Shown here piece by piece: positions 1-40,630 of a DNA stretch of 64,000 nt. The first letter of the stretch is position 1. Each line of letters opens with the position of its first letter. Source of the stretch: Candidatus Tabaqchalia intestinavium (GTDB lineage: Bacteria; Bacillota; Clostridia; Oscillospirales; CAJFTT01); assembly GCA_904420005.1 (NCBI GenBank), contig CAJFTT010000021.1, positions 22,538 through 86,537 of the forward strand. Direction: 5' to 3'. The notes under the pieces are model-generated. The model was not told the DNA's origin and made no database searches. It worked only from the letters and a program-made list of their open reading frames with translations. A program made the translations under genes and the position numbers.

Positions 1-954
1 GCGCTGCATTTCCTCCAGGACATACCGGTCGCCCACGCCCGTGACCCGGACGGCGATGCCGTTCTCCTTGGCGAAGGCGTAAAAGCCCATATTGGTCATG
101 GTGGTGACAACGGCTGTATCTCCGCGGAGCCGGCCCTGGCGCTTGAGGCGGCGGGCGAACACCGCGATCATACGGTCGCCGTCAATCTCCCGGCCCGCCC
201 GGTCGACGGCCAGGCAGCGGTCGGCATCCCCGTCGAAGGCGACGCCGATGTCGCAGTGCTGCTCGAGCACCGTGCGTTTGAGATTCTCCAGATGGGTCGA
301 GCCGCAGCCGTCGTTGATATTGATACCGTTGGGCTCGTCGCTGACGATGACGGCGTCCGCGCCCAGACGCTGGAATAACGCGCGCGCCGTCGTGGAAGCG
401 GAACCGTTGGCGCAATCGACCGCGACGCGCACGCCGGCCAGTCCCTCCGGGACGGTCGAGGCGAGAAACTCGACATATTTCTCCCGCGCATCTTCCGCCA
501 CCGTGCAGCGGCCCAGCGCCGCGCCGGATACCGGCGGGCCGGCCGGCGTCTCGCCCAGGATGACGGCCTCGATCTCCTCCTCGATGGCGTCGGCCAGCTT
601 GAAGCCCTGGCCGTTAAATATCTTGATGCCGTTATATTCAAAAGGATTGTGCGACGCGGAGATCATGATGCCCGCGTCGGCGTCCAGCTCCCGCACGAGA
701 TACGCCACGGCCGGCGTCGGCACCACGCCCAGCAGCACCACGTCCGCCCCGGCGGAGGTCACGCCGGCGGCCAGCGCATTCTCCAGCATATCGGAAGAAA
801 TGCGCGTATCCTTGCCGATGAGGATCTTCGGCTTTCTGCCGATGTCTCCGGTGAGCACGCAGGCCGCCGCATACCCCACCTTCACCGCCAGCGCGCAGGT
901 AAGCTCGGTGTTCGCCACGCCGCGCACGCCGTCCGTGCCAAATAATTTCCCCAT
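1..954 (-). CDS. glmM: Phosphoglucosamine mutase, C-terminus truncated by window edge
   Basis: Minus-strand translation MGKLFGTDGVRGVANTELTCALAVKVGYAAA...GIMISASHNPFEYNGIKIFNGQG...DGDADRCLAVD; TDGVRG, ASHNP and DGDADR motifs of GlmM. Confidence 0.95.
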   Translation of the reverse strand, partial: MGKLFGTDGVRGVANTELTCALAVKVGYAAACVLTGDIGRKPKILIGKDTRISSDMLENALAAGVTSAGADVVLLGVVPTPAVAYLVRELDADAGIMISASHNPFEYNGIKIFNGQGFKLADAIEEEIEAVILGETPAGPPVSGAALGRCTVAEDAREKYVEFLASTVPEGLAGVRVAVDCANGSASTTARALFQRLGADAVIVSDEPNGININDGCGSTHLENLKRTVLEQHCDIGVAFDGDADRCLAVDRAGREIDGDRMIAVFARRLKRQGRLRGDTAVVTTMTNMGFYAFAKENGIAVRVTGVGDRYVLEEMQR

Positions 955-3855: not shown

Positions 3856-3955
3856 ACGGCACGATCACTTGCATTTTTTGCACTTGTCAAGTCTTTGCCC
3901 CGCGCACAGGCAGGCCAAGCAGAAACATTGCTTCGCGTTTCATGCCCCGCGCAGC

Positions 3956-4804: not shown

Positions 4805-5458
4805 TTTAACTTCCTCCCACTTGTTTTATACAAATTTGACTACAGTATAGCAGCAGCACCTGCGTTTGTCAATCGTTTTCTCCAAAATTCGCGATAGGCA
4901 TCTGCTTCTTCGCAAAATGCATTTCATAAATAATTTCCATTCTCTTATTCTTCTCTTGTTCAAAGCTGAAAAAATTTACCATTCATATGGAAAAAGCCTT
5001 CAACCGCAGTGCCTGGGCAAAAACGCCCGATCGCAAAGCACAGCCGCATGCCCTCGAGCATGGCGCTTTTCTGCACAATTTCTTCCTTTTCACCGCACAG
5101 GTTCAATCTGTACGTCGCCCGCGCCCGCGCCAGAAGCTCGCAAAGCAAAAGGTCCCGGTTCCTTTTTGTCCCCCCCAAATGAAAGCGTTTTCCGACCGTT
5201 TTGAATAAAAAGGTCGCGCGATGGCTATCCGCTTTCGGGCAGTAGAACAGAGGCGCAAGCGCAACGAATTTGAGTTTATCAGGGCATTAAAAATAAACAT
5301 TAGACACATCGGGAGTTTTTACATCTGAATTTATCGCTAAAATTTCTACCTTCGGTGAACAAGGGGCAATGCGCCCAGCGGCGGCTGGAACGGACGCGGA
5401 CGCGCATTCGGCAGGCGTCCCGTTTTATTAAAACCGGAATGGCGCACTCTGGCGCGCC

Positions 5459-5585
5459 CGCCGTCCTGCTGCGGTCTTGTTCGCGCCCCTTCCACCGCTG
5501 GGGCCATAGGGTTTTTCGGGTGGAAAACGGGCATAGATCCCGCCGACGCGGCGGCCGGGCGCTCGCCCGCGAGCGAGGAAAACAC
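5459..5585 (+). repeat. Dispersed intergenic repeat copy A (inverted partner at 63441-63572)
   Basis: CGTCCTGCTGCGGTCTTGT...CCGCTGGGGCCATAGGGTTTTTCGGGTGGAAAACGGGC...GGCGGCCGGGCGC...GAGGAAAACAC recurs as the reverse complement at 63441-63572. Confidence 0.75.
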
Positions 5586-5651
5586 GCAGCCATGCTCGCG
5601 CATTTTCCGTTTCAAGCGGTGCACTCGCCCACGGGCGAGGAAAACACAGCC
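5562..5651 (+). repeat. Two-copy phased repeat (62-bp phase)
   Basis: CTCGCCCGCGAGCGAGGAAAACACGCAGCC (5562) and CTCGCCCACGGGCGAGGAAAACACAGCC (5624). Confidence 0.7.
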
Positions 5652-5735
5652 GACTGTCTGTTTGGCATCACAAAAACCGCGTTCTCTTTTGTCCGCCAAG
5701 GGTACAGAACCACATGATAATCGCGTGGTTTTCGA

Positions 5736-5776
5736 TATACAAAGAGAGGAGCAATGAAAGTTCATCGCTCCTCTTT
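5736..5776 (-). terminator. Terminator hairpin of the microprotein transcript
   Basis: GAGGAGCGATGAACTTTCATTGCTCCTC hairpin; T-rich on both strands. Confidence 0.75.
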
Positions 5777-5820
5777 TACTCTTATTCACTTGTCTGGAGG
5801 GGATTTCCGCCCTCCGCATG

Positions 5821-5880
5821 TTACTTCTTTGGACCGTCCTCCGACGCTTTGAGTTCCAAACGTCTCATCAAACGTCCCAT
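5821..5880 (-). CDS. Candidate 19-aa microprotein MGRLMRRLELKASEDGPKK
   Basis: ATG...TAA, AGGAGG at 5889-5894 (8-nt spacing), inside a transcription unit with strong promoter (6158-6186) and terminator (5736-5776). Confidence 0.5.
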   Translation of the reverse strand: MGRLMRRLELKASEDGPKK

Positions 5881-5884
5881 GAGC

Positions 5885-6150
5885 AGAGCCTCCTATATTT
5901 CCTCAATATAGAAATCCCTCTTAAAATCAGGCGGGGAATCCACCCTTCGAGGAAAGCATCCCGCTCACACCGCGCCGACTGGTTATTTCCCTGAAAATCA
6001 AACCAACCGTTTCAAACTTGGATCCTTTGGTCAGGCCACCGGTGTGAGCCCGCAAACGCTCTCCATTTCAGAACAGTACACTGGACTCACCCCTTTCTGA
6101 AATTCAATCCTCTGGAAGGCTGCCACTCTGCAGCACCCTTTCCTTGATTG
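5885..6150 (-). ncRNA. Structured 5' leader RNA of unknown class upstream of the microprotein ORF
   Basis: Long-range 10-bp helix 5973-5982/6040-6049 (GCTCACACCG/CGGTGTGAGC), 9-bp hairpin 6065-6073/6095-6103, hairpin 6119-6134, 7-bp hairpin 5893-5899/5905-5911 abutting the SD. Confidence 0.5.
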
Positions 6151-6157
6151 CATCTAC

Positions 6158-6186
6158 AGTTTAGCATGCTTTTTCGTGTTTGTCAA
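6158..6186 (-). promoter_or_regulatory. Predicted sigma-A promoter of the microprotein unit
   Basis: TTGACA-17 bp-TAAACT with TGC extension (minus strand). Confidence 0.75.
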
Positions 6187-6283
6187 TAGTTTTCACTATA
6201 ATTTATGCAAAAAATTTGAAAAATGTTCCAATCGCTGCCAAGCTGCAAACGAAATTCCTCCCTCCGCCCTGGCAGGCGATCTA

Positions 6284-8125
6284 TCACGCCGCCTGGGAAG
6301 CCGCCGCGCCCGACGCCTGCTGCACATAATTCTCGACCTGCTGCCGCAGGATGGCGAAGCTCGTCGGGCCCGTGCGCAAAACCGCCTCATGGAATGCCGT
6401 GAGGTCAAACGCATCGCCCAGCGCGAGCTCCGTCTCGGTCCGCAGATCCTGAAGATAAAGCCCGTTGAGGAAATAGGTCAGATAATTCCCCGGCGTTTCC
6501 AGATTCAGCGCATATTGCGCGTCAATCGTTTCATCATCCAGGGACGGATTCAAATTCTCCCGCAGGAACCGCGCGAATTCGTCGCGCGTCCAGCCGTCAT
6601 AATGCAGCCCGATATCGGCCAGGCAGAGGCAGCACCCCGTGATCGCGGTATTAAGCGCCATAAGCTGCGCGGGCGCCTGATCCTCCACATCCGCATAGCG
6701 CCAGCTGTTGAATTCCACATATTCCGCCCAGCCCTCCGTATAGCCCTGCACGTCCAGCAGATACCGCACCGTGGGCAGCTCCAGCGAGCTGAAGTAGGCG
6801 TTTTGATACATATGCCCCGGATACCCCTCATGCGCGATCGTGGGGAACAGGCTCTGCGAATATTCGCCGTTGATATAGATCACTTCCGGCTCGCTTGGCT
6901 GTTTGTCGATCTTGGCGCTGAGATACGCGGCCGGGGAAAAATTATCCTTCATCGAGTCCGGCACCTGCTGCACCTTATACGTCAGTTCCCCGACCTGCGG
7001 GAAATCCTCCTGCATCCTCTCGCGCAGGTAGTCGAGCGTCTCTTCCACCGACTGGAAGCTGGAATAGCGCACATCCTCGCTGGTCTCGATCTCCATCAGT
7101 TGCGGATTTTCCAGCATCAGCTCCACCATCTGCCGCATATATTCCTCCATCTTGCCTTCGAGATAGGCGCGGATCTCCTCCACGCTGTCATCGATGCCCG
7201 TCTGCTGCCGCAGCAGCGCCTCGTAATATTCCTGGCCGCCCGGCAGCGCCGCGAGGCCGCCTTCCTCCGTTTTGACCTCGATCTTCCCCAGCGCCTCTGC
7301 CAGCGCGCGGTAGGCCGGGACGAGCGAATGGAGCACCAGCTCTTCGTTGCGCTCCTTCATGGACGTTTTTTCTTCCTGTGTGAGGAATTCCGCCGCGTCG
7401 AGCTTGTCGTTCATCGAGTCGATGAGGAACTGATTGTCGCGGGAGGAAAAATTCTCGCACTGCTCGATGACCGCGTCCATGATCCGCTCGCACATGCCCA
7501 CGCCCTGCGCCTGCCGCCGCTCTTCGTTGGCTGCGTAGGACAAAAATGTTTCCTCCGCGGTGCTGAGGATATGGAAATAGGACTCCACATCGGTCTTGTT
7601 CTTGATCGTGAATTCATTGAGCAGAAGCGGCAGCTGCGCCTGGAACCCCAGGAAGCTGCCCAGCGGGTTGTTGGCCAGATCATAATACGGCAGGATCGCC
7701 TGATCCCGCAGCAGCGAGTCCTTCAGAATGTCTTAGGTCAGCTGCTGCGCCTCGGTCAGCGCCTCGCGGTCGAATTCCTCCAGCTCGTCGAGCAGCGCCT
7801 GTGTGAACTGCGCTGCCTCCTCGGCATCCGTTTCGGAAATCGTGGGCAGCGTGAGCACCGTGCGTTCGATCCCGAACTGCGTCTCGTCATAAAACAGGAA
7901 ATTGACATCGAGCGAATCCGCCGGGATCAGCCGCGCAGGCAGCGCCAGCAGAAATTCGTCAAACGCCTGGCTCCCCTTTTTCTCCGCCTGGCCGGCAGAG
8001 GAGACGTTCTCCCCGCTCTGCGTCCCCTGCGGCTGCCCCGTGCAGCCCGCCGACAGCGCCAGGACGGCCGCCAGCAGCAGCGCCAAAAGCCGTTGCTTCC
8101 ATTTCTTTCCCCTATGCATTCCCAT
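6284..8125 (-). pseudogene. DUF885-family lipoprotein interrupted by in-frame TAA at 7733-7735
   Basis: N-terminal part MGMHRGKKWKQRLLALLLAAVLALSAGC (lipobox)...EAQQLT, stop, then same frame DILKDSLLRDQAILPYYDLANNPLGSF...AHEGYPGHMYQ; both ORFs share one frame with no other stop. Confidence 0.75.
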
Positions 8126-40334: not shown

Positions 40335-40630
40335 AGCCCTTGTCTCAGTTTCCACTGGGACAAGGGCTGTCGTTCAGCTCCTGCGGTACCACCCAAATTG
40401 ACGCGCCCCTTTCCGGACGCATCCGCTCCGCTCCGCGCACCATCATGCGCGCTTCCTTGGTAACGGGTGAAGCTCCCGTCGGGCACTACTGCGCATTCCT
40501 GCGGTTCGTCCCGCCCTCCTGAGTCCATTCAGCCGCCCCGCCCCGCTGCCTCGCACCAACCGGCAGTTCTCTGAACCGGGCAAACAGGAAGCTTACTCTT
40601 CTCAGTCATCGGTTTTGTTTGATTGGGCTT
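40335..40630 (-). ncRNA. T-box leader with UGG (Trp) specifier
   Basis: GGGTGGTACCGC (40383-40394), terminator AGCCCTTGTCCCAG...CTGAGACAAGGGCT + T6, specifier context GCTGAATGGACTC (TGG at 40525-40527). Confidence 0.92.

Follow-up and report, generated by a model that had tools for sequence, protein, structure and literature searches.

A whole small transcription unit can be read on the minus strand of the window, the 64,000-nucleotide stretch of DNA analysed here: a promoter, a leader, a Shine-Dalgarno sequence (SD), an ORF and a terminator (Table 1). We propose, at a probability of roughly one half, that this unit is a lineage-restricted sRNA gene that encodes a small protein and possibly has a dual function. 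Having a sigma-A-type promoter and an intrinsic terminator to itself, a free-standing sRNA gene of ~407 nt would be transcribed as a unit. Its 3ʹ part would carry the 19-codon ORF, whose strong ribosome-binding site is partly held in a hairpin, and a small, basic, non-membrane peptide would be produced at a low or conditional rate. The folded leader would shield the start or act on other RNAs. Transcription, translation and any role in trans of the RNA or the peptide are what we infer from the sequence. We favor this reading because, within the window, both the promoter and the SD-ATG signal show high specificity, because P1 starts at about the predicted +1 and the terminator directly follows the ORF, and because the next gene has its own promoter (4872). 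Furthermore, the RNA is not 6S and has no Rfam match beyond chance level, and a survey estimated that at least ~10% of bacterial sRNAs contain a coding ORF (PMC5521070), which also argues for a small-protein sRNA.

Table 1. Predicted features of the transcription unit, by position in the window
Feature	Position	Strand	Remarks
Sigma-A-type promoter TTGACA-17-TAAACT, extended -10	6186-6158	minus	TG one base 5ʹ of the -10
P1, 5ʹ stem-loop	6150-6105	minus	Pair probabilities 0.65-1.0; starts one base past the predicted +1 (~6151)
P2 hairpin, ATTTCAGAA/TTCTGAAAT arms, 21-nt loop	6103-6065	minus	Leader folded alone
P3, long helix with an interruption (10 bp + 10 bp)	6064-5951	minus	Pair probabilities 0.82-1.0
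P4, possible apical hairpin CGGUUGGUU/AACCAGUCG within P3	6009-5976	minus	MEA structure only, absent from MFE
GAGUCC in the P2 loop (6088-6083) with GGAUUC (5941-5936), possible long-range pairing or pseudoknot	6088-5936	minus	MFE of full transcript
SD hairpin, 3ʹ arm over AGGA of AGGAGG	5913-5891	minus	Predicted fold
Shine-Dalgarno AGGAGG	5894-5889	minus	8 nt 5ʹ of ATG (5880)
19-codon ORF MGRLMRRLELKASEDGPKK	5880-5821	minus	ATG 5880, stop TAA 5823-5821
Intrinsic terminator, 13-bp stem	5774-5745	minus	Directly 3ʹ of the ORF; terminator-like on the plus strand too (TTTTACTCTTATT tail)

The predicted transcript extends from ~6151 to 5745 and includes a 271-nt leader. There are 10 promoters of the form TTGACA-16..18-TAnnnT in the window, against 0.1 expected for 64 kb, and the T-box and FMN leaders are each directly preceded by one of them. 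The start signal AGGAGG-N4..10-ATG occurs at 11 sites, and at all 10 of the others it heads an ORF of 72–460 codons. In simulated transcripts of the same composition, this signal precedes an ORF of 10–40 codons in only 2.5% of cases; with the SD ignored, 89% of the simulated transcripts contain an ORF of at least 18 codons. The specificity of the promoter and of AGGAGG-ATG in the window makes the transcription unit and its start codon credible by the genome's own standard. Judged from the start signal, the ORF is likely translated. By inspection, the peptide is small, basic and charged, and it has no hydrophobic segment. A preliminary description of this DNA had reported the promoter, a leader of ~270 nt, a hairpin ending inside the SD, and the 19-codon ORF followed by a terminator, all of which we confirm. 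A leaderless 40-codon frame from ATG 6153 was set aside because +1 is expected at ~6151.

The unit contains no metabolic or transport gene, and the terminator follows the ORF at once. The next gene downstream, for an F5/8 type C domain protein, lies ~940 nt further on and has a TTGACA promoter at 4872. With a promoter and a terminator to itself, and a separate promoter for the next gene, the unit heads no regulated operon. Hence, we favor an independent sRNA that carries a short ORF over a leader. The preliminary description had offered a riboswitch and a dual-function sRNA as options. The first of these stays at the level of a suggestion, with no regulated metabolic gene downstream and no homologue in the genomes searched, whereas the second is still the most economical, and is supported by the independent transcription unit and the credible translation start. 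The unit is embedded in ~1.4 kb of DNA that is apparently non-coding, and ORFs in the gap downstream match no Pfam family. Judged from distant matches and gene content, the genome is probably that of a Clostridium relative. In the only synteny comparison, a genome of the same family (G001) has ruvC and ruvA in common with this one, and the upstream region is different. Relatives of the DUF885 gene are only ~30% identical and lack the RNA.

Folding the leader by itself gives high pair probabilities for P1, P2 and P3, and this structured 5ʹ part would probably give a stable RNA. Both perfect helices noted in the preliminary description are present, but the 10-nt arms GCTCACACCG (6049–6040) and CGGTGTGAGC (5972–5963), which lie in P3, are separated by 67 nt rather than 57. 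A perfect helix pair of 10 bp and 9 bp was found in none of 1000 shuffles, yet 3.5% of real window tiles have one. In the MFE structure of the full-length transcript, P2 is exchanged for the GAGUCC/GGAUUC pairing, which is 2–4 kcal/mol better than intact P2 without that pairing; conceivably, both could be present together as a pseudoknot. Folding energy has a z of -4.3 when the whole transcript is considered; this becomes -2.45 once the terminator is removed, and the leader by itself has a z of -2.2. The first value is less striking than it appears because the terminator supplies much of it. About 7% of the window's 200-nt tiles are equally extreme in folding energy, and the leader is only moderately low, not extreme, by this measure.

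What is the functional significance of a hairpin that overlaps the SD? Each of the first four bases of this motif has an unpaired probability of ≤0.03; that is, they are paired in nearly the whole ensemble. The preliminary description took the overlap to suggest translational control. However, when the upstream leader was shuffled, 30% of versions shut the SD equally well or better. Closure by itself is therefore no evidence of control, and the idea stays at the level of a suggestion. An alternative 7-bp pairing that was spotted post hoc, UUUCCUC/GAGGAAA, joins the 3ʹ strand of P3 to the SD hairpin and would partly free the SD (unpaired probabilities of 0.98, 0.62, 0.46 and 0.42), at a cost of ~7–8 kcal/mol.

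The leader had not been recognised as any riboswitch or T-box, and it had been proposed to look for a match to a known ncRNA in Rfam. This search was run at E values up to 10 and was negative: the unit has only chance-level matches, and neither a known family nor a riboswitch aptamer model fits it. An identity as 6S RNA was rejected, with no RF00013 match in the unit and the genome's 6S RNA on another contig; an Rfam match to SR1 is at chance level (14.3 bits versus 45).

Known dual-function sRNAs, such as SgrS/SgrT, SR1/SR1P and RNAIII/delta-haemolysin, have their own promoter and terminator, are 200–500 nt long and structured, and contain a short ORF with an SD. VcdRP is likewise a dual-function sRNA with a short ORF and its own SD (PMC8672173). 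The unit resembles these RNAs in its own predicted promoter and terminator, its length, its structured RNA, and its short ORF with an SD. In contrast to them, it has no homology, and its translation and any base pairing with a regulatory target are hypothetical. Like riboswitches that have translational expression platforms, it begins with a structured 5ʹ leader, and one of its hairpins overlaps the SD, but it has no Rfam match, no conserved aptamer and no controlled metabolic gene, only the 19-codon ORF and then the terminator. A structured leader that closes the SD of a tiny ORF is also seen in type I toxin mRNAs. A toxin is disfavored because the peptide carries charges and lacks any hydrophobic stretch; moreover, no sigma-70-type promoter was found on the plus strand across 5000–7000.

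An alternative explanation, possible but doubtful, is that the RNA is a purely noncoding sRNA in which the 19-codon ORF is incidental and rarely translated owing to the shielded SD. Transcripts of sRNA size very often contain short ORFs, both in our simulation and in the literature (PMC5521070). The nearly constant pairing of the first four SD bases is consistent with this explanation, as is the lack of peptide relatives in the genomes and collections searched. However, the AGGAGG-N4..10-ATG signal is gene-specific in this window (10/10 of the other sites head ORFs of 72–460 codons) and is rarely placed before a short ORF by chance (2.5% of simulated transcripts). We consider it unlikely that the unit is instead a cis-regulatory leader, riboswitch-like or an RNA thermometer, in which P1–P3 would sense a signal and the SD hairpin would be the switch controlling translation of the microprotein. 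The complex leader, the closure of the SD in the main fold, the partial freeing of the SD by UUUCCUC/GAGGAAA, and the possible long-range pairing of the P2 loop are all consistent with such a leader. Nonetheless, the alternative state costs ~7–8 kcal/mol, the shielding of the SD is ordinary relative to shuffled leaders, there is no Rfam riboswitch match (E up to 10), and the unit lacks a gene for metabolism or transport. In its boldest form, which we think hardly probable at all, the leader would be a new type of RNA sensor, for a metabolite or for temperature, with no other example known, and with strand exchange between P3 and the SD hairpin switching production of a 19-residue regulatory peptide. 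The predicted alternative pairings are the only positive evidence pointing to such a new riboswitch-microprotein pair.

It is very unlikely that the unit is a relic attenuator or leader, of the T-box or ribosome-stalling leader-peptide type, that has lost its target gene. The leader is similar in length to a T-box leader (RF00230), the genome has a real T-box, and the G-rich stretch GAAGGGUGGAUUCCCCGCC (~5948–5930) is faintly like the T-box sequence AGGGUGGNACCGCG. An ORF of leader-peptide size ahead of a terminator, the apparent lack of coding sequence in the surrounding ~1.4 kb, and gap ORFs downstream without a Pfam match also fit a relic. However, the Rfam T-box model is silent on the unit even at E up to 10, yet it detects the true T-box at 40353–40618 in the same window. 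Despite the faint motif, a T-box identity was therefore rejected. Furthermore, there is no downstream aminoacylation or amino-acid gene, and reading of the sequence revealed no antiterminator for the terminator at 5774–5745.

We return to a small-protein-coding sRNA gene as the preferred reading. Against it, we found no RNA or peptide homologue, ORFs of at least 18 codons are frequent in simulations (89%), and the leader fold is not extreme. A DNA search for the unit in 98 relatives yielded no homologue. Neither did searches with a covariance model, built from this single sequence, of 394 genomes of the order, 391 genomes of the class and 398 genomes of the phylum, or of the 38 nearest genomes; filters were strict in the large runs and laxer for the 38, and the genome sets overlap, comprising ~1,000 relatives in all. 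No homologue of the peptide was found in 295 genomes from the order or in the one other family member searched, and a degenerate pattern that covers residues 1–11 identified none across 84,980 species. Phage, plasmid and viral collections likewise contained no homologue of the RNA or the peptide. As far as these data go, the element appears to be a singleton among the genomes searched.

Several matches were rejected as homologues. Two of 24–25 nt were in other genomes (G006, in an unrelated sequence context, and G053), and a second match in the genome itself (contig C58) lies inside a gene that reads as an ArsR-like regulator. In another genome (G024), the match is confined to the P2 loop and its context is unrelated. 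The remaining genomic matches were weak and partial (G323, G262 and G127) or weak (G516, G759 and G544), and two viral pattern matches (L008 and L042) are due to chance.

If the unit is transcribed and translated, it would represent a lineage-restricted RNA gene and an unannotated peptide in a poorly sampled bacterial group. Orphans of this kind are missed by methods that depend on homologues. Are strong local signals sufficient to predict genuine small-protein genes? The unit is a clean test case for this question.

Other elements were observed in the same region. A palindrome-plus-tail repeat, CTCGCCCRCGRGCGAGGAAAACAC, occurs twice (5563–5585 and 5625–5647) in the non-coding gap downstream of the unit. 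An M-box riboswitch lies at 3863–3660 on the minus strand (45.5 bits versus a gathering threshold of 44). It is directly followed by a strong terminator-like hairpin and then by ruvC (start ~3293), not by a magnesium transporter. The M-box before ruvC is either an orphan or has an odd target; in G001, no match to an M-box was found near ruvC. The U-tract of the unit's terminator (window positions 5745–5790) is better on the plus strand (TTTTACTCTTATT), and this terminator may be bidirectional. All 10 of the TTGACA-16..18-TAnnnT sites (4872 to 60895) are on the minus strand and read TTGACAA, and they provide a useful local promoter standard.
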